Shown: one piece after another, positions 2,105-14,991 of the stretch
Numbering within the stretch: position 1 is the first letter of the stretch
Layout of the letters: each line of letters begins with the position of its first letter
From: Paraconexibacter algicola
Lineage (GTDB): Bacteria > Actinomycetota > Thermoleophilia > Solirubrobacterales > Solirubrobacteraceae
Length of the DNA: 64,000 nt
Direction of reading: 5' to 3'
Assembly: GCF_003044185.1 (NCBI RefSeq)
Contig: NZ_PYYB01000001.1
Span: forward strand, 2,562,978-2,626,977
Notes under the pieces: generated by a model
Told to the model about the DNA's origin: nothing
The model's database searches: none
Seen by the model: only the letters and a program-made list of their open reading frames with translations
Translations under genes and position numbers: made by a program

Positions 2105-2122
2105 CTCCACCGATCGGTGGAG
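2105..2122. promoter_or_regulatory. 18-base perfect palindrome, candidate response-regulator site
   Basis: CTCCACCGATCGGTGGAG reads identically on both strands and sits 37 bases upstream of the GTG at 2159. Its half-sites TCCACCGA and TCGGTGGA recur at 2350-2357 and 2371-2378, upstream of the response regulator at 2430, and TCGGTGG recurs at 5367 after the kinase gene. The restriction of copies to this locus suggests an operator for the local NarL-type regulator (inference). Confidence 0.6.
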
Positions 2123-2158
2123 TTGCGGTCCTGCGGCCCAGCGGCGACGATCCGCGGC

Positions 2159-2365
2159 GTGACGGCCCCCACCGACGATGCGCTCGATCGGCGCAAGCTG
2201 CGCCACGACCTGCGCGGGGAGGCGACCGCGATCGGCTGGGCGGCCCGGTCGCTGCTGGCCGAGAACCCCCCGGCGCACCAGTTCGAGCGCCTCGAGGAGA
2301 TCGCGCGGGCCGCCGCGCGGATCGAGCGCACCCTCGACGAGCACCTGCCTCCACCGACCGGATGA
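2159..2365 (+). CDS. 68-residue orphan H-box (HisKA-like) mini-protein
   Basis: Starts at GTG 2159, with the -10-like GACGAT seven bases upstream and no Shine-Dalgarno sequence. The protein is soluble and all-helical. Residues about 13-35 contain L-R-H-D-L-R-G-E-A-T-A-I-G, a near match to the H-box of histidine kinases (RHDLRTPL-type), followed by a second helix rich in Glu/Arg. There is no ATPase domain. It lies 64 bases before a response regulator and 787 bases before a hybrid kinase, so it could be a phosphotransfer or dimerisation partner of that system, or a remnant of a kinase. The coding call rests on the H-box match, GC3 bias and a promoter layout matching its neighbours. Confidence 0.6.
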   Translation: MTAPTDDALDRRKLRHDLRGEATAIGWAARSLLAENPPAHQFERLEEIARAAARIERTLDEHLPPPTG

Positions 2366-2378
2366 GCCGATCGGTGGA
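2350..2378. promoter_or_regulatory. Split copy of the TCCACCGA/TCGGTGGA inverted repeat
   Basis: TCCACCGA (2350-2357) and TCGGTGGA (2371-2378) are perfect inverted half-sites with a 13-base spacer. From 2367 the sequence also matches the region after the 2105 palindrome closely (CCGATCGGTGGA followed by a similar T-x-G-C-x-G-T tract). The site overlaps the 3' end of the mini-protein gene and precedes the regulator start. Confidence 0.55.
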
Positions 2379-2429
2379 ATCGCAGTGCCCGGCCTTGCTC
2401 TCGGCGCCTGCGCCGACGACGATCGCGCC

Positions 2430-3113
2430 GTGCCCACGACGACGATGACGAGCGCTGGACCCGACCCACCCGTCCGGATCGGGATCTCGGTGCTCGTCGC
2501 CGACGACCACCCGCTCTACCGCGACGGCCTCGCCCGGGCGGTCAACGCCCACCCTGATCTCGACCTCCTCGGCCACGTCTCGGACGGGACACGGGCGCTC
2601 GCCGCGATTCGTCGCCACGAGCCGGACGTCGCGGTCATGGACATCGACATGCCCGGGATGAGCGGCCTCGAGGTCCTCGAGGAGGTCGTCGGCGCCGACC
2701 TCGCGACGCGCGTCGTCCTGATCTCGTCGCACCTCGACGGGCCGACCGTCCACCAGGCGATCGCGGTGGGCGCGTTCGGCGTCCTGCTCAAGGACGCGGG
2801 CCCGCAGGAGATCAGCGCCGCGGCGCGGGCGGCGACGGACGGCGACGTCGTGCTCTCCCCGGCGGCGTCCTCGCTCCTGGCCCGCGCCGTGCGCGACCAG
2901 CGTGGCGTCCCGGCACTCATCGAGCTCACCGATCGCGAGCGTGAGGTCCTCGAGCTCATCGCCGAGGGGCGCTCGGCGCCCGAGATCGCCGGCGAGCTGT
3001 ACCTCGCCCCCGCGACGGTCAAGAGCCATCTCCACACGCTGTACACGAAGCTCGGGGTCTCGGACCGCGCGGCAGCCGTCGCGGTCGCGTTCCGGCGTGG
3101 CGTGTTGCAGTAA
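2430..3113 (+). CDS. NarL/FixJ-family response regulator
   Basis: A two-component output protein of 227 residues. An N-terminal receiver domain (DDHPLYRDG acidic pocket, phospho-acceptor D71 in VMDIDMPG, conserved Lys in LLKDAG) is followed by a C-terminal LuxR-type helix-turn-helix (LTDREREVLELIAEG, then ATVKSHLHTLYTKLGVSDR). It should bind DNA when phosphorylated. GTG 2430 is chosen because the sequence before it (GACGAT, then six bases) mirrors that of the mini-protein at 2159; ATG 2445 is an alternative. The kinase at 3153 follows after 39 bases and is the obvious partner. The inverted repeats at 2105 and 2350 may be its own operators. Confidence 0.93.
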   Translation: MPTTTMTSAGPDPPVRIGISVLVADDHPLYRDGLARAVNAHPDLDLLGHVSDGTRALAAIRRHEPDVAVMDIDMPGMSGLEVLEEVVGADLATRVVLISSHLDGPTVHQAIAVGAFGVLLKDAGPQEISAAARAATDGDVVLSPAASSLLARAVRDQRGVPALIELTDREREVLELIAEGRSAPEIAGELYLAPATVKSHLHTLYTKLGVSDRAAAVAVAFRRGVLQ

Positions 3114-3152
3114 CGCTCGCGCCGAGGCCCGTGCCGTGGGAGCATCCGCGGT

Positions 3153-5348
3153 GTGGGGGCACACGGGAACGCGCGTGTCGGCGGATTGGTCGCCGCGCTG
3201 CTGCTGATGACGGCGCTTGGGGCGTGGCTCGCCCATGGCGTGCTCGCGGACCGCGACGAGGAGCGCTTCCGCAGCGAGATCGAGCGGATCGACGCCGCGA
3301 TCGAGGACCGCATGGCGACCTACGTGCAGGTCGTGCGCGGCGGCCTCGGCCTGTTCGAGGCCTCGGAGAAGGTGTCGCGCACGGAGTGGCTGCGCTTCGT
3401 CGAGCTGCTGGAGCTCGATCGCAACTACCCCGGCTTCAAGTCGCTGAGCTACGCGCCGCTCGTGCGCAGGGCCGATCTCCCCGACTTCCTCGCGCGCGTC
3501 CGCGCCGAGCCACTGCCTCCGGGCGTTCCGCCGACGAACGCGTTGCGCACCTATGAGCTGGTCGCGCCGGCCGGGTCGCGGGGCGGCGGGGACCTCCACA
3601 GCCCGCTGCTCTACACCGCCCCGTTCGTGCGCAACATCGGCGCGCTCGGCGCGGACATGATCCGGGAACCGGGCCGTCGCGCCGTCATGCTCGACGCCCT
3701 GCGCAGCGGTCAGGCGCGCATCACCCGGCGGGTCAACCTGCGCGGCACCGACCCGGACACGGCGGGCTTCATCGCGTTCGTCGGGCTGCGCAAGGACGGC
3801 CGGGACCTCGGGTGGCTCACCGCCGCGTTCACCGCGAACGAGTTCCTTCGGGGGCTCCTCGGGCGGGCGCCGTCCCCCCTGGACTTCGAGCTCACCGACG
3901 GCCAGGGCGCCCTCCTCGCGAGCACCGCGGGGGTCACGCGGACCGGAGCGCCGCGAGCCCTCCCGGACGAGACCGACGACACGTTCCGCGGCACGAGCGC
4001 CTTGCGGATGCCGGGCCGCATCTGGCAGGGCCGCTACGTCGCCGGCGCGGACTTCGCGTCCACCTCGACGACGGTCGTCCCGCTCGCGATCCTTCTCGGT
4101 GGGACGCTGGTCACCGGCCTGCTCGCGCTCATCGCCCTCGCCGCCGGCAGCTCGCGACGCCAGGCGGCCACGCTCGCGGAGCAGGCGATCGTCCTCGAGC
4201 GCGCTCGCGACGAGGCGCAGGCCGCCGATCGGGCGAAGGCGACGTTCCTGGCGACGATGTCGCACGAGATCCGCACGCCGATGAACGCGGTGGTCGGGAT
4301 GAGCAGCATGCTCCTGCGCGCACCGCTGAGCGAGGAGCAGCACGAGCGGGCGCGCGTCATCCGGTCCAGCGGCGAGCACCTTCTCGGCCTCATCAACGAG
4401 ATCCTCGACGTCTCGAAGCTCGAGGCCGGCCGCATCGAGCTCGAGGCTGGGCCGCTCGAGGTGCGGGGCCTGATCGTCGGAACGGTCGACCTCATCCGCG
4501 CCGACGCCGAAGCGCGTCGGGTGAGCGTCGAGGTCGACATCGCCCCGGGCACGCCGCCCTGGGTTCACGGGGACGACGGGCGCCTGCGGCAGGTCCTGCT
4601 CAACCTGCTGGCCAACGCGGTCCGCCACTCGCCGGAGGCCGGCCGGGTGCGCGTGGGCGTCGGCGCCACGCCGGTCCCGGACGGGTGGGAGCTCGACCTG
4701 ACGGTTGCGGACACCGGTCCGGGGATCGACCCGGCGGACCGGGACCGGATCTTCGAACCGTTCGAGCAGGGGACGGGCCGCGTCGGCGGCACGGGCCTCG
4801 GACTGTCGATTGCCTCGCGCCTGGTCGAGGCGATGGGCGGCCGCATCGAGGTCCAGGACACGCCCGGAGGCGGAGCGACGCTGCACTTCTGGGCCTGCGT
4901 CGGCGCGGCGCAGGCTCCGATCCGCCCGGCGGTGCCCGACCCCGTCCCCGCGGTCGACGACGCGTTCGCGGCGCTGCGCGTGCTGGTCGCCGAGGACAAC
5001 CCGCTCAACCAGCTCATGGTGCGCGACGTGTTCGGCCAGCTCGGTCTCTGCGCCGACGTCGTCGGCGACGGCGAGGAGGCGGTCGCCGCGGTGGTGCGCC
5101 AGCCCTACGATGTCGTCTTCCTCGACCTCCACATGCCCGTGCTCGACGGTCTCGCCGCGGCACGCGAGCTCGTCGCGACGATCCCGGCGCCGCGGCGCCC
5201 GCGGATCGTCGCGATGACGGCCGACGTGACCGCCGCCGCGCGGGAGGAGGCCGCCGCCGCAGGGATGGAGGACTTCGTCGCCAAGCCCGTCATCGCCGCT
5301 GACCTCGTCGCCGTCCTGCGTCGCAGCGCGACGGTGACCGCGGCCTGA
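3153..5348 (+). CDS. CHASE-domain hybrid sensor histidine kinase
   Basis: 731 residues from GTG 3153. A first membrane helix (about residues 9-29) is followed by an extracytoplasmic CHASE-type domain (about 45-205; NYPGFKSLSYAPLV is typical), a second membrane helix (about 309-330), a HisKA dimerisation domain with phospho-His H371 in MSHEIRTPMNAV, an HATPase_c domain (N box LLNLLANAVRHS; G boxes DTGPGI and GGTGLGL) and a C-terminal receiver with phospho-acceptor D658 in FLDLHMPVLDG. It senses an external ligand and probably relays phosphate through its receiver. The usual next step needs an Hpt domain, none of which is seen here; the H-box mini-protein at 2159 is a conceivable substitute. 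Confidence 0.93.
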   Translation: MGAHGNARVGGLVAALLLMTALGAWLAHGVLADRDEERFRSEIERIDAAIEDRMATYVQVVRGGLGLFEASEKVSRTEWLRFVELLELDRNYPGFKSLSYAPLVRRADLPDFLARVRAEPLPPGVPPTNALRTYELVAPAGSRGGGDLHSPLLYTAPFVRNIGALGADMIREPGRRAVMLDALRSGQARITRRVNLRGTDPDTAGFIAFVGLRKDGRDLGWLTAAFTANEFLRGLLGRAPSPLDFELTDGQGALLASTAGVTRTGAPRALPDETDDTFRGTSALRMPGRIWQGRYVAGADFASTSTTVVPLAILLGGTLVTGLLALIALAAGSSRRQAATLAEQAIVLERARDEAQAADRAKATFLATMSHEIRTPMNAVVGMSSMLLRAPLSEEQHERARVIRSSGEHLLGLINEILDVSKLEAGRIELEAGPLEVRGLIVGTVDLIRADAEARRVSVEVDIAPGTPPWVHGDDGRLRQVLLNLLANAVRHSPEAGRVRVGVGATPVPDGWELDLTVADTGPGIDPADRDRIFEPFEQGTGRVGGTGLGLSIASRLVEAMGGRIEVQDTPGGGATLHFWACVGAAQAPIRPAVPDPVPAVDDAFAALRVLVAEDNPLNQLMVRDVFGQLGLCADVVGDGEEAVAAVVRQPYDVVFLDLHMPVLDGLAAARELVATIPAPRRPRIVAMTADVTAAAREEAAAAGMEDFVAKPVIAADLVAVLRRSATVTAA

Positions 5349-9657: not shown

Positions 9658-10095
9658 TCAGGCGCCGAGGATGCGCTGCTTCTCCCGGGCGAACTCCTCG
9701 TCGGTCAGCGCGCCGCGATCGCGAAGGGCGACGAGGCGCTCCAGCAGCTCGACGGTGTCGGCAGCGGCCGGCTCGGGCGTGCTGCCGCCGGCCGCCCGCC
9801 TGACGCTCGCGCGGCCGCCGGCGGCGACGATCTGCGCCCGCAGCCGCTCGGCGTCGGCCGCGGAGAAGGAGCCGAGCGAGGACGGGGCACGGTCAGCCAG
9901 GTCCTTGGCCTCCTTCAGCCCGAGTCCGGTGGCCTCACGGCAGACCTTGATGATCCGGATCTGCTGCTCGCCCGCGGCCTCGAGGACCAGCTCGTGGTCC
10001 CCCCGCGCCGGAAGGAACGCCGCCGAGGGCGTGGGGACGACCATTGCGCCGCCGCCGAAGGGATCGTCGCTCCGCTGCTTCCTGCGCCAGAACAC
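9658..10095 (-). CDS. L7/L12 C-terminal-like domain plus SHOCT protein
   Basis: 145 residues from GTG 10095, with AAGGTCAGG upstream. The middle segment IRIIKVCREATGLGLKEAKD, followed by a segment ending in AERLRAQIVAAGGRASV, matches the C-terminal domain of ribosomal protein L7/L12 (K-x-V-R-x-x-x-x-L-G-L-K-E-A-K). The last about 30 residues (ELLERLVALRDRGALTDEEF, then AREKQRILGA) form a SHOCT helix pair. It is not the ribosomal stalk protein: the N-terminal dimerisation domain is missing. Proteins of this build are common in Actinobacteria with unknown function. It is upstream of yccF in one operon. Confidence 0.82.
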   Translation of the reverse strand: MFWRRKQRSDDPFGGGAMVVPTPSAAFLPARGDHELVLEAAGEQQIRIIKVCREATGLGLKEAKDLADRAPSSLGSFSAADAERLRAQIVAAGGRASVRRAAGGSTPEPAAADTVELLERLVALRDRGALTDEEFAREKQRILGA

Positions 10096-10353
10096 GGCCC
10101 TGACCTTAGCCTGCGGGCACCACCGATCGTGGACGTCGGCGAACCGCGCGGGAAACTCGGTCGGCGGCCGGGCTGGTCGGCCAGCATCTGCACGAGCTGC
10201 CACCAGGCTTGCGGCAATGTCCGAGGACGAGTCTCCCGACGCGACGAGACGGTCCCGGCGAGTACGTGCCGGACATCCCCGCCCCGAGGTCGTGAGGGAC
10301 CGGCACCGCACCTGGATGGCTCCTCGCGACGAGCCGCTCCGCGGGGCCCGGCC

Positions 10354-10557
10354 CTACCGGTGCGCGGACAGCCGGTGGCGCGTGCCCGGCCGGCGGGCCC
10401 GGTGGCGCAGCTCGACGAGCCCGTCGCGCAGGCGCCGCATCGGCGGGGTCGCGCGGCGGCGGCGCTCGGCGTCGAGATCGGCGCCGCAGTAGGCGCAGCC
10501 CGCGGCGAACGGGGTGACGCGGCCCCCGCAGTGCGGGCAGGTGTAGGCGTCGTGCAC
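10354..10557 (-). CDS. Small zinc-ribbon protein
   Basis: 67 residues. GTG 10557 is chosen because GGAGG (complement of 10566-10570) sits eight bases upstream; a TTG at 10572 is in frame but lacks support. Two knuckles, CPHCGG (residues 7-12) and CAYCGA (21-26), form a zinc ribbon, followed by a basic helical tail (ERRRRATPPMRRLRDGL, then VELRHRARRPG). Possibly nucleic-acid or protein binding; no function is known. Confidence 0.75.
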   Translation of the reverse strand: MHDAYTCPHCGGRVTPFAAGCAYCGADLDAERRRRATPPMRRLRDGLVELRHRARRPGTRHRLSAHR

Positions 10558-10661
10558 GGAACGGCCCTCCAAGGGTGGGGTGACAGGACGGTGCCCGCAG
10601 CGTCGCGCGCCGCGCCCGGCCGCGGAAGGGGCTCATCGGGGTGCGTGGGGGACCGTCCGCG

Positions 10662-10680
10662 GTCGGCCGATCGACCGACG
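10662..10680. promoter_or_regulatory. 19-base repeat, copy A, upstream of the second two-component operon
   Basis: GTCGGCCGATCGACCGACG lies 58 bases before the regulator start at 10738. An exact inverted copy is at 12819-12837, just after this locus. Within it, CGGTCG-N6-CGACCG (10660-10677) is an inverted repeat. Such a site is a good candidate for binding by the NarL-type regulator encoded between the copies (inference). Confidence 0.6.
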
Positions 10681-10724
10681 CTCGCGCGCCGACCGGCGGC
10701 GTCGTCCACGGCCGCGGTCGGTGG

Positions 10725-10730
10725 TAGACA
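10725..10730 (+). promoter_or_regulatory. -10 element TAGACA, leaderless layout
   Basis: TAGACA ends seven bases before ATG 10738, with ATCCGCGG between. There is no Shine-Dalgarno sequence, so the mRNA probably starts at the AUG. The octamer ATCCGCGG is also found directly before the starts at 2159 and 3153. Confidence 0.45.
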
Positions 10731-10737
10731 TCCGCGG

Positions 10738-11379
10738 ATGAGCCAGCGCGTCCGGGTCGTGGTCGCCGACGACCATCCGCTGTTCCGCGACGGGATGGTC
10801 CGCGCGATCGAGCTGCGCCCGTCGCTGGAGCTCGTCGGCGAGGCGACCGACGGCCGCCAGGCGCTCGACCTCGCCCGCGAGCTGGCGCCCGACGTGCTGC
10901 TGCTCGACGCGCGGATGCCGGAGCTCGACGGCCTCCAGGTCCTGCAGGCCCTGCGCCGCGAGCAGCGGCCGGTGCGCGTCGTCATGTTCTCCGCCTTCGT
11001 CGACGGCCCCGTGGTGCACCAGGCGCTGGCGGGCGGCGCGGTCGGCTACCTGCCCAAGAGCGCCGAGCGCGACGAGGTCTGCGAGGCGATCGAGGCGGCC
11101 GCCCGAGGCGACTCGACGCTGCACCCGAGCCTCCAGGGCGTCCTGCTCGAGCAGCTGCGCGCCCAGGGCGTCGACGACGACCGTCCCGTCCTGACCGACC
11201 GCGAGCAGGAGATCCTCGTGCTGATCGCCGAGGGCCTCAGCGCCCCGGGGGTCGCGGCGCGGCTGCACCTCGCGCCCGGCACGGTGAAGACCCATCTGGG
11301 CCACCTCTACGAGAAGCTCGGCGTCTCCGACCGCGCGGCGTGCGTCGCCGAGGCGATGCGTCGCGGCCTGCTGGAATGA
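10738..11379 (+). CDS. NarL/FixJ-family response regulator
   Basis: 213 residues. Receiver domain: DDHPLFRDG, phospho-acceptor D57 in LLLDARMPELDG, and the conserved Lys in YLPKSAERD. C-terminal LuxR helix-turn-helix: LTDREQEILVLIAEGLSAPG, then TVKTHLGHLYEKLGVSDRA. It is a paralogue of the regulator at 2430. Its stop overlaps the kinase start (ATGA at 11376), which couples translation of the pair. The 19-base inverted repeat flanking the locus is a candidate binding site. Confidence 0.95.
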   Translation: MSQRVRVVVADDHPLFRDGMVRAIELRPSLELVGEATDGRQALDLARELAPDVLLLDARMPELDGLQVLQALRREQRPVRVVMFSAFVDGPVVHQALAGGAVGYLPKSAERDEVCEAIEAAARGDSTLHPSLQGVLLEQLRAQGVDDDRPVLTDREQEILVLIAEGLSAPGVAARLHLAPGTVKTHLGHLYEKLGVSDRAACVAEAMRRGLLE

Positions 11380-12563
11380 CCGCCGACCGGGCCTCCGAGG
11401 TCCGCGGGATCGCGCTGCTACGGCTCGCGCTCGTGCCGGTCGCGCTGCTGGGGACCGCCACCGCCGAGCCCGACGCCACCACGGGCGCCTACCCGTGGGT
11501 GATGGCGGCGTTCGCGCTCTACGCCCTCGCCGGCCTCGTGGTCGTCCTCGCCCGGCGCGGGGCGGCGTTCACCGGGACCGGTCAGGCGTTCCTCGACCTC
11601 GTGCTGCTGGCGCTCGTCGTCTACACCAGCGGCGGTCCCGCCTCGCCCCTCACCTACGTGTTCTTCGTGCTGCCGATCGCCGCGGCGCTGCGGCTGTCCC
11701 CGCGGCTGACCGCCGCCTGGTCGGGGCTCGCCGTCCTCGCCTACCTCGCGGTGACGCTGCCGCATCCGCGCACGACCCTGCCGGGGGACTGGCAGCTCGT
11801 CGCCGCCGACAGCGCCGCGCTGCTCTGGGTCGCGGGCGCGGCCGTGATGCTCTCGGTGCTCGTCGGGCTGCGCCAGCGGGCGCTCGCCGAGCTCGCCGCC
11901 ACCCGCCGCGCGCTCGTGCAGCAGACCCTCGACGCCGAGGCCCGCGAGCGCCGCCGCCTCGCCGAGCAGCTGCACGACCACGCGATCCAGAACGTGCTGC
12001 TCGCCCGCCAGGAGGTCACCGACCTCGCGCGCGGCGTGCCCGGCGCGCAGGAGCGCCTGCGCGCGGCGCTCGACGAGACCGACCGGCAGCTGCGCCGGGA
12101 GGTCTTCCAGATGCACCCGCTCGGGCTCGAGCGGGCGGGGTTGACCGCGGTGCTCGAGAGCCTCGCCGACGAGGCCGCCGAGCGCGGGAGCTTCGCGGCG
12201 ACCGTGACGGTCGCGCCGGAGGTCGAGCGCACGGGAGCGTCGGAGCTGCTCGTCAGCGCCGCGCGCGAGCTGCTCGGCAACGCGGCCAAGCACGCGCACG
12301 CGACCGCCGTCCGCGTGACCGTGGCGCCGGAGGGGGAGGACCTGGCGCTGACGGTGGCGGACGACGGTCGCGGCATCCCGGACGGCCGCCTGGAGTCGGC
12401 GGTCCGGGACCGGCACATCGGCGTGGCCGCGTTGATCGAACGGGTGCGGGCCGCGGGCGGGGAGCTGCGGATCGTCACCGCCGAGGAGACCGGGACGACG
12501 GTGCAGGTCCGGGTGCCACCCGGTGGCCCGGACGCTCAGGCGGGACGGCGGCGCGGCGGATAG
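11376..12563 (+). CDS. NarX/DesK-type (HisKA_3) sensor histidine kinase
   Basis: 395 residues. ATG 11376 overlaps the regulator stop. The N-terminal half has about five to six membrane helices (residues 8-165; LRLALVPVALLG, LDLVLLALVVY, VFFVLPIAAAL) with very short loops, so sensing is probably within the membrane. A coiled-coil (EARERRRLAEQ) leads to the HisKA_3 phospho-His H200 in QLHDHAIQNVLLARQEV; HATPase_c has an N box ELLGNAAKHAHA and a G box DDGRGI. It is the cognate kinase of the regulator at 10738. Its last 28 bases overlap the convergent small gene at 12536. Confidence 0.95.
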   Translation: MTADRASEVRGIALLRLALVPVALLGTATAEPDATTGAYPWVMAAFALYALAGLVVVLARRGAAFTGTGQAFLDLVLLALVVYTSGGPASPLTYVFFVLPIAAALRLSPRLTAAWSGLAVLAYLAVTLPHPRTTLPGDWQLVAADSAALLWVAGAAVMLSVLVGLRQRALAELAATRRALVQQTLDAEARERRRLAEQLHDHAIQNVLLARQEVTDLARGVPGAQERLRAALDETDRQLRREVFQMHPLGLERAGLTAVLESLADEAAERGSFAATVTVAPEVERTGASELLVSAARELLGNAAKHAHATAVRVTVAPEGEDLALTVADDGRGIPDGRLESAVRDRHIGVAALIERVRAAGGELRIVTAEETGTTVQVRVPPGGPDAQAGRRRGG

Positions 12564-12721
12564 ACCGCGTCGTGGGCCCGCCGGGCCTGCTGGATGTGCG
12601 AGCCGAGCTCCGCGAGCCGCTGCTGCAGCGGCCGGGCGCCGGAGACGAGCGCGCGACCGTCGCGACGGATCGCGAGGCGGTTGCGGTCGAGGCGATCGGC
12701 GATGGCGTCGGGGAGGGGCAT
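12536..12721 (-). CDS. Small basic helical protein, 61 residues
   Basis: It starts at ATG 12721 with AAAGGA about 6-11 bases upstream. The sequence is helical and basic (IADRLDRNRLAIRRDGRAL, then LQQRLAELGSHIQQARRAHD) and ends PPRRRPA; there is no Cys or membrane segment. It is convergent with the kinase gene and overlaps its 3' end by 28 bases. The 19-base repeat at 12819 lies 98 bases upstream, so it may belong to the same regulon. No family recognised; coding status is supported by the start signals but not certain. Confidence 0.5.
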   Translation of the reverse strand: MPLPDAIADRLDRNRLAIRRDGRALVSGARPLQQRLAELGSHIQQARRAHDAVYPPRRRPA

Positions 12722-12818
12722 GGGGGGCGTCCTTTCGGGAGGAGGTGGACGGTCACAGCCTCCCGCCGGCGCACCCGGTCCGGCATCCGCCGATCGGCAG
12801 ATCCTCCGGGGTGCGCGG

Positions 12819-12837
12819 CGTCGGTCGATCGGCCGAC
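12819..12837. promoter_or_regulatory. 19-base repeat, copy B (inverted)
   Basis: CGTCGGTCGATCGGCCGAC is the exact reverse complement of 10662-10680. It sits between the divergent starts of the small basic protein (12721, minus) and the acyl-CoA synthetase (12918, plus), so either or both could be targets of the neighbouring two-component system. A shorter palindrome, GCCGATCGGC, is at 12789-12798. Confidence 0.6.
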
Positions 12838-12917
12838 GATCGTCGCGTCCGGGGCGGGCCGGGCGGCCCGGTCGGCCTCGTGCGGGGCGAGGACCGGTGC
12901 GTGATACTCGCCCGACG

Positions 12918-14540
12918 ATGCGCCTGACCCCGCCCACCGGCCCGCTCGGTCCCCTGCTCGGCGCGGGCGGCACGGTCGCGCGCAGCGGGGCGCTGCGCCC
13001 CGTGCGACCGGACCGCCCGCTGCGCGCGGCGCTCGCCGTCCGCGGGGCCGGCGGGGCGCTGGCGTCCGCCGCCGCGCTCGGCGCGGCGCTGTGGGCGCCG
13101 CGTGCCGCGCTACACGACGAGCGTGGGACCCTCATGCAGGAGGAACTCGACGCCGACGTGCGCGCGCTGGCCGCCGCGCTGGCGGTCCGGCTGCCCGCCG
13201 CCGACGCCCGCGTGGGCGTGCTGTGTCGCAACCACCGGGGCTTCGTCGTCGCGGCGCTCGCCGCGTCCCGGGTCGGTGCCGACCTCGTGCCGCTGAACAC
13301 CGACTTCGCCGGCCCGCAGCTGCGCGCGGTGCTCGACCGGGAGGGCGTGCAGCTCGTCGTCCACGACGAGGAGTTCGCCGGACTGCTGGACGGCTTCGCC
13401 GGCGGGCGGGTCGTCGCCTGGCACGACGGCCCGGTCGCGGGGGAGACCGTCGATGACCTGCTCGTCGAGGGCGCGGGCCTCCCGGCGCCGCGGGGCGCGC
13501 GCGGGAGCGGCCGCGTCGTGCTGCTGACCTCGGGCACGACCGGGGTGCCCAAGGGGGCGCCGCGCACCTCGTCGGCGACCCCGCTCGCGCTGCTCGCCGC
13601 GGCGCCCGCCGCGGTCGACCTGCTGGCCCGGATCCGGCCGGTGCCCCGGGCGGGCGCGCCGCTGCTCGTCGCGCCGCCGCTGAACCACATGTTCGGGCTC
13701 GCGGCGATGGTGGCCGGGCTCGCCGCCGGGTCCCCGCTGGTGCTGCAGCGGCGCTTCGACCCCGCCGCGGTGCTGGCGGCGCTCGCCGACCACCGTGTCG
13801 GGGTGCTGTGCGCCGTGCCGACGATGCTGCGCCGGCTCGTCGACGTCGACGACGCGCGGCCGCTGCCCGAGCTGCGGGTCGTCGCGTCGGGGGCGGCGCC
13901 GCTCTCCCCGGACCTCGTCGGCCGGGTCATGGACCGCTTCGGGGCGGTCCTCTACAACGGCTACGGCTCCAGCGAGGTCGGGGGCGTGTCGCTCGCGACC
14001 CCGTCGGACCTGCGCGCGGCGCCCGGCACGGTGGGGCGCCCGGTCCCCGGCGTGCGGGTGCGGATCCTCGACGCGGACGGTCGCGCGGTCCCGCCCGGGA
14101 CGACGGGCCGGATCTTCGTCGGCAGCACGCAGCTCTTCGAGGGGTACACCGGGGGCGGGGGACGACCGGTGGTCGACGGCCTGATGGGCATCGGCGACCT
14201 CGGCCACCTCGACGACGAGGGCCGCCTGTTCGTCGACGGCCGCGACGACGAGATGATCGTGTCCGGCGGCGAGAACGTCTTCCCGCAGGAGGTCGAGGCG
14301 ACGCTCGCCGCGCATCCGGCGGTCGCGGACGCCGCGGCGGTCGGCGTGGCCGACGAGGAGTTCGGCCAGCGGCTCGTCGCGTTCGTCGTCCTGCGCGGCC
14401 CGGTCACGGAGGAGGCGCTGAAGGACCACGTCCGCGCGCACCTCGCGCGCTACAAGGTGCCGCGCGCGATTACCGTCGTGGAGGCGCTTCCGCGCACCGC
14501 GACCGGGAAGATCCGGCGGGCGGCGCTCCCGCGCGACTGA
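12918..14540 (+). CDS. Acyl-CoA synthetase / AMP-dependent ligase
   Basis: 540 residues from ATG 12918; GATACT ends nine bases before it. ANL-superfamily motifs in order: phosphate loop LLTSGTTGVPKGAPR near residue 200, A5 YNGYGSSEVGG near 347, A7 GIGDLGHLDDEGR near 425, hinge DGRDDEMIVSGGENVFPQEV near 440, and catalytic Lys in PRTATGKIRR near the C-terminus. It activates a carboxylic acid as acyl-AMP and transfers it to CoA. The N-terminal about 70 residues are Ala/Gly/Leu-rich and may associate with membrane. Substrate cannot be read; a long-chain fatty acid or a lipid precursor is likely. Confidence 0.93.
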   Translation: MRLTPPTGPLGPLLGAGGTVARSGALRPVRPDRPLRAALAVRGAGGALASAAALGAALWAPRAALHDERGTLMQEELDADVRALAAALAVRLPAADARVGVLCRNHRGFVVAALAASRVGADLVPLNTDFAGPQLRAVLDREGVQLVVHDEEFAGLLDGFAGGRVVAWHDGPVAGETVDDLLVEGAGLPAPRGARGSGRVVLLTSGTTGVPKGAPRTSSATPLALLAAAPAAVDLLARIRPVPRAGAPLLVAPPLNHMFGLAAMVAGLAAGSPLVLQRRFDPAAVLAALADHRVGVLCAVPTMLRRLVDVDDARPLPELRVVASGAAPLSPDLVGRVMDRFGAVLYNGYGSSEVGGVSLATPSDLRAAPGTVGRPVPGVRVRILDADGRAVPPGTTGRIFVGSTQLFEGYTGGGGRPVVDGLMGIGDLGHLDDEGRLFVDGRDDEMIVSGGENVFPQEVEATLAAHPAVADAAAVGVADEEFGQRLVAFVVLRGPVTEEALKDHVRAHLARYKVPRAITVVEALPRTATGKIRRAALPRD

Positions 14541-14544
14541 GCGC

Positions 14545-14991
14545 TCAGGCGGCGGGGGCCTCGCGCACCGCGCGCGCGAGGTCCTGGAGCGTGCCGCGCA
14601 GCCGCTCGAAGTCGCCCGGCGTGAGCCCCATCGCGGTCGCGACGCGATCGGGGACGCACGCCGCGGACTCGCGCAGCGCCTGCCCGGCGGCGGTGAGCTG
14701 CACGAGCACCGAGCGCTCGTCCTCGGGGCGGCGGTGGCGCTCCACCAGGCCCGTCGCCTCGAGCCGCTTGAGCAGCGGGGACAGCGTGCCGTAGTCGAGC
14801 TGCAGCGCGTCGGCGAGTTCCCGCACCGTGCGCGCGTCGCGCTCCCAGAGCGCGAGCATCACGAGGTACTGCGGGTAGGTCAGGCCCAGCGGGTCCAGCA
14901 GTGGCCGATACAGCGTCGTGACCGCGCGTGAGGCGGAGTAGAGCGCGAAGCACAGGGCCTCGTCGAGGGTGAGCGGTGGCGGGGCGGCCAT
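14545..14991 (-). CDS. MarR-family repressor of the OhrR type
   Basis: 148 residues. The N-terminus LDEALCFALYSASRAVTTLY carries the Cys and Tyr positions typical of one-Cys OhrR peroxide sensors (Cys14 here). A winged helix follows (TVRELADALQLDYGTLSPLL recognition region; ERHRRPEDERSVLVQLT wing). In OhrR, oxidation of the Cys by organic hydroperoxide or hypochlorite releases DNA. It is divergent from the alpha/beta hydrolase at 15088, with two tandem 15-base inverted repeats between them, so it most likely represses both genes. There is no ohr gene in the window, so the target enzyme may be the hydrolase. Confidence 0.9.
   Translation of the reverse strand: MAAPPPLTLDEALCFALYSASRAVTTLYRPLLDPLGLTYPQYLVMLALWERDARTVRELADALQLDYGTLSPLLKRLEATGLVERHRRPEDERSVLVQLTAAGQALRESAACVPDRVATAMGLTPGDFERLRGTLQDLARAVREAPAA

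Follow-up and report, generated by a model that had tools for sequence, protein, structure and literature searches.

Putative palindromic operators of a NarL/LuxR-type response regulator at a two-component locus of Paraconexibacter algicola

Within the 64,000-nucleotide stretch of the Paraconexibacter algicola genome analysed here (the window, to whose numbering all positions refer), one short sequence occurs on either side of a pair of genes for a response regulator and its sensor kinase. The initial annotation recorded it as an exact 19-base inverted repeat that was unlikely to arise by chance, and proposed a small regulon of the local NarL-type regulator, which raises the question of what these repeats are and what they might control. 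The exact match is present at 10662-10680 on the plus strand and 12819-12837 on the minus strand, and it extends to 20 nucleotides, 10662-10681 being identical to the reverse complement of 12818-12837. Each copy comprises a palindrome of 18 bp, GTCGGYCGATCGRCCGAC, that is perfect except for one mismatched pair. The second copy does lie in the opposite orientation, but its inversion carries no meaning, because each copy is itself palindromic and both strands match at both places. Likewise, two is the correct number of exact copies but not the complete set, which also includes a weaker, third site at 12786-12801. The features of the locus are as follows.

10354-10557, minus strand: small zinc-ribbon protein of 67 aa with CxxC motifs, divergent from the regulator
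10662-10681, no strand assigned: putative operator O1, the 18-bp palindrome GTCGGCCGATCGACCGAC plus 2 bases
10725-10730, plus strand: putative -10 element TAGACA, read by eye, 7 bases 5' of the regulator start codon
10738-11379, plus strand: NarL/LuxR-type response regulator of 213 aa (Pfam Response_reg 3e-26, GerE 7e-15)
11376-12563, plus strand: sensor histidine kinase of 395 aa, NarX/MacS/MctS-like (Pfam HATPase_c 2e-13)
12536-12721, minus strand: 61-aa protein with no assigned family, divergent from the acyl-CoA synthetase
12786-12801, no strand assigned: putative operator O3, TCCGCCGATCGGCAGA, with 1 mismatch to the core consensus
12818-12837, no strand assigned: putative operator O2, the palindrome GTCGGTCGATCGGCCGAC, spanning 12820-12837, preceded by two bases, exact reverse complement of O1
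12834-12845, no strand assigned: overlapping 12-bp palindrome CGACGATCGTCG
12918-14540, plus strand: acyl-CoA synthetase of 540 aa, FadD12/FadD2-like, a candidate target (AMP-binding 1e-60)

The regulator combines an N-terminal receiver domain (PF00072, 92.2 bits against a cut-off of 30.2) with a C-terminal GerE/LuxR helix-turn-helix (HTH) domain (PF00196, 54.9 bits against a cut-off of 23.5), and it shares an operon with its cognate kinase (PF02518, 51.3 bits), whose start overlaps the regulator stop. Their NCBIfam relatives are NarL, MctR and MadR for the regulator and MctS and MacS for the kinase, all scoring below the cut-offs. The zinc-ribbon protein gives weak Pfam zinc-ribbon matches, below cut-off; its start was taken as a GTG picked by eye after a GGAGG. 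Pfam and NCBIfam searches with the 61-aa protein gave no match, and among 146 genomes of the family its relatives number just two, both weak, at 44-47% identity across 43-50 residues. The acyl-CoA synthetase has PRK13382 FadD12 as its best NCBIfam match, at 500 bits where the cut-off is 850. Both perfect sites are intergenic and lie where the annotation had put them, O1 between the zinc-ribbon and regulator genes, with its centre 67.5 bp 5' of the regulator start codon, and O2 between the 61-aa and acyl-CoA synthetase genes. The centres of O3 and O2 are exactly 35 bp apart, the O2 copy starting at 12821 in the core search described below. The centre of the 12-bp palindrome at 12834-12845 is 11 bp from that of O2, and with low confidence this palindrome could represent weak additional half-sites.

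A motif search of the whole 4,736,481-base genome found GTCGGYCGATCGRCCGAC twice with no mismatch, never with one and four times with two. Rather than the dozens of scattered copies that would have spoken against a local role, the 4.74 Mb thus contain two perfect copies, both of them in this locus. With the window as training sequence, Markov models of orders 3-5 predict about 0.001-0.002 occurrences of the 20-mer per strand per genome and 0.025-0.06 of the 18-bp palindrome, compared to the two observed, in agreement with the earlier statement on chance. This G+C-rich genome does offer some ground for a coincidence, in which CGATCG-rich sequence simply happened to yield two similar palindromes: CGATCG itself is frequent, with 107 occurrences in the 64 kb window or about one per 600 bases. 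However, such a coincidence would have to place two palindromes within 2.2 kb where 0.025-0.06 are expected in a genome, and it would leave unexplained that the site is kept in two other genomes, so that we consider it very improbable. As CGATCG is common, the specificity of the site must be carried by the arms.

A looser core, TCSGYCGATCGRCSGA, a consensus that was refined with the sites already in view, has seven matches in 4.74 Mb at up to one mismatch, while the reversed control has none. Three of the seven fall in this locus, at 10663, 12786 and 12821. In the other four the mismatch falls within the CGATCG centre, which genome-wide is therefore intact only in the three local core matches at this threshold. 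The genome-wide core search, again at up to one mismatch, gave no further intact-CGATCG site that would point to a wider regulon, and sequences that match the 18-mer with 2-3 mismatches look like background. The candidate regulon seems confined to this locus. We found no published description of the motif in the literature searched.

The putative -10 element would make the regulator transcript near-leaderless. The same layout recurs in two orthologous loci, as TAGACA-N7-GTG in L065 and TAGAAA-N7-ATG in L062. A promoter scan of the 10000-13500 region found no sigma-70-type site, and no -35-like box is evident. We also note a perfect 12-bp palindrome, CATCCGCGGATG, at window positions 10729-10740, overlapping the regulator start codon. 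Palindromes can form hairpins, and the sites might in principle act as a terminator or another RNA or DNA structure instead of a protein operator; this is extremely unlikely, as the palindrome has neither a loop nor a T-run, the 10000-13500 region contains no terminator-like site, and the sites are situated upstream of genes.

To what extent the site accompanies the regulator can be seen from related loci. Orthologues of the kinase (E < 1e-75) occur in only four other genomes among the 232 of the order. In two of these, G081 (locus L065) and G133 (locus L063), the regulator is 69% identical to that of the window, rising to 85-89% in the DNA-binding domain, and the best upstream site has 0-1 mismatches. 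The sole perfect core match in the G081 genome has its centre 49.5 bp 5' of the start codon of the regulator orthologue; additional sites there, with 2 and 3 mismatches, are at -73.5 and -108.5, respectively. Of the three core matches in the G133 genome, one lies upstream of the regulator orthologue, at -71.5, and it is accompanied by a weaker site with 3 mismatches at -48.5 and another with 5 mismatches at -106.5. Assuming a uniform density of matches, the chance of finding a match within 220 bp upstream is about 3e-4 for G081 and 2e-4 for G133. The window (O3 to O2), L065 and L063 share an outer spacing of 35 bp, the third site of L063 being weak, and the inner spacing is 24 bp in L065 and 23 bp in L063. 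When the upstream regions are aligned, little is shared apart from the core and the -10 region. A counterpart of the zinc-ribbon gene, likewise divergent, lies upstream of the L063 regulator. Both loci carry their sites with no acyl-CoA synthetase nearby, and good sites occur in no other independent orthologous footprint.

The remaining two genomes present a different picture. The kinase of G086 (L062) is 62-63% identical and apparently has no full regulator gene ahead of it. At L062:3785-3975 we observe TAGAAA-N7-ATG followed by a 19-codon frame (MAPQRLTVTAFPRRIAPGA, then a stop) that resembles a remnant of the regulator N-terminus. A degraded palindrome with 3 mismatches is centred at -67.5, which is the distance of O1. 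We read this palindrome as an operator that may be losing constraint after loss of its regulator, a single case and one in which a divergent regulator adjoins. In G106 (L064), where the regulator is 58% identical and its HTH matches at 45 of 62 positions, no site was found upstream. A further 11 genomes of the order contain exact core matches. The flanks of these matches were compared solely with the proteins of this locus, and only L037 has a partial regulator match nearby; we took these matches as background. A scan of genome contigs returned one distant kinase only.

The arrangement at the orthologous loci bears on another reading of the repeats, as the terminal inverted repeats bounding a mobile segment that carries the regulator, the kinase and the 61-aa gene. 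Two exact, inverted copies 2.1 kb apart that flank a block of genes would be its natural signature. Yet every copy is palindromic by itself, the enclosed genes include no transposase, no target-site duplication could be seen by eye at either copy, and orthologous loci have two or three sites clustered upstream of the regulator instead of one at each end. On these four grounds we discarded the mobile-element reading, to which we attach next to no probability.

A total of 24 regulators, with L025 left out because it lies at a contig edge, were scored for HTH identity, compared by sequence, and for an upstream site. All three regulators with an HTH identity of at least 53/62 (window, G081 and G133) are preceded, within 220 bp, by a site with 0-1 mismatches, and all three have the recognition region GTVKTHL. 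The other 21, with an identity of at most 47/62, have no upstream site with fewer than 3 mismatches and mostly ATVKGH, ATVKSH and similar sequences in the recognition region. If the window is set aside as the source of the motif, the comparison is 2/2 vs 0/21, or 1 in 253 by counting, a figure that serves as a guide only since the regulators are related. By contrast, homologues of the acyl-CoA synthetase, including those that are 56% identical and have upstream sequence available, lack the site upstream. This indicates that the site follows the regulator, and the synthetase was rejected as a conserved partner of the site. The proposed link to the local NarL-type regulator is thus supported by sites at its two closest orthologues and their absence at less similar regulators; the "small regulon" appears tied to this regulator, but seems not to reach beyond the locus, there being no further intact-centre sites in the genome at up to one mismatch.

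These data also help to judge whether the palindromes are bound by another transcription factor, for example of the TetR or MarR type, that would control both the two-component operon and the synthetase from outside. TetR-type repressors typically have 18-bp palindromes near fatty-acid genes, so the sequence and setting of these sites would suit such a factor too, and an OhrR-like MarR regulator is encoded nearby at 14545-14991. However, from genome to genome the sites track the regulator orthologue together with its HTH sequence, all three intact-centre sites fall in this locus, and the synthetase homologues have none, which makes an outside factor unlikely.

We therefore consider it very probable that O1-O3 are operators of the regulator encoded at 10738-11379, serving autoregulation as well as control of the divergent 61-aa gene/synthetase region. 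In such a scheme, the kinase (11376-12563) would phosphorylate the regulator, and a phosphorylated regulator dimer would use both of its helix-turn-helix domains to bind each palindrome. Binding at O1 would autoregulate the regulator-kinase operon, while O2 and O3, which at 35 bp are about three helical turns apart, could control the 61-aa gene, the acyl-CoA synthetase, or both. We infer the binding, the phosphorylation requirement and the regulatory sign from sequence. As the sites are located 5' of a plausible -10 element that has no recognisable -35 box, the regulator more likely activates than represses. Measured to the synthetase start, O2 and O3 are 89.5 and 124.5 bp away; measured to the 61-aa gene start, they are 107.5 and 72.5 bp away. 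The latter distances come close to the positions at which the outer and middle sites precede the orthologous regulators (-106.5/-71.5 and -108.5/-73.5), so as a candidate target the 61-aa gene may equal or surpass the synthetase, a comparison that presupposes similar transcription starts. As a possible target, this barely conserved gene is unsupported outside this genome.

The window contains another LuxR-type regulator system, at about 2106-5348 (regulator at about 2445-3113), which is preceded by a palindrome of its own.

2106-2121, no strand assigned: perfect palindrome TCCACCGATCGGTGGA, with one genomic copy, preceding the window's other LuxR-type regulator system

TCCACCGATCGGTGGA is centred 47.5 bp 5' of this paralogous system's first open frame. 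Compared to O1 and O2, it has the CGATCG centre in common but differs in the arms; compared to the regulator at 10738, the other system has a related HTH stretch, LAPATVKSHLHTLYTKLGVSDRAA, but differs in residues of the recognition-helix region. A small open frame at 2161 (MTAPTDDALDRRKLRHDLRGEATAIG...), ahead of the paralogous regulator, resembles the phosphoacceptor helix of a kinase. Several regulators of low HTH identity also have CGATCG-centred pairs, about 15 bp apart and with other arms (L028, L056). Together with TCCACCGATCGGTGGA, these pairs suggest a shared centre with diverging arms. In genome G012, the paralogous regulators L029 and L031 have similar palindromes, GTCCCCCGAGCGGGGGAC and GTCCTCCCTACGGAGGAC, about 155 bp upstream, and these are perhaps those regulators' own operator. 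Tentatively, and with rather more doubt than conviction, we suggest that paralogous LuxR-type regulators of this family share the CGATCG centre, that the arms diverge with the recognition-helix residues, and that each pair owns a private, near-single-locus operator. If this is true, the window holds two kinase-regulator pairs with testable insulation.

Overall, for a regulator family that is uncharacterised and belongs to a little-studied group of bacteria, the locus provides a concrete candidate operator with its spacing, and ties that operator to one candidate target pair. Taken with the paralogous system, it would be a small, clean case of duplicated regulators separating their binding sites.

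Among known systems, the regulator-kinase pair has the same architecture as MacRS/MadRS of actinobacteria, and the two proteins score against the NCBIfam MadR, MacS and MctR/MctS models. The scores obtained (135.8 of 300 bits for MadR, 78.7 of 300 for MacS and 56.5 of 500 for MadS) are far below the cut-offs, so the regulator and kinase are not MacRS/MadRS members by these models. MacR reportedly binds a palindrome as well, from which the putative operator presumably differs in sequence, and we know of no characterised regulator that has GTCGGYCGATCGRCCGAC as its operator. Set against the NarL/FixJ (LuxR-type) systems, the putative sites are very few and all local. In the other respects the likeness is close: a receiver and a GerE-type HTH domain in one protein, a kinase in the same operon, palindromes of about 18 bp at the system's own operon and at a neighbouring candidate target, and phased arrays of sites. 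In short, the gene switch proposed here is of an ordinary, already known type.
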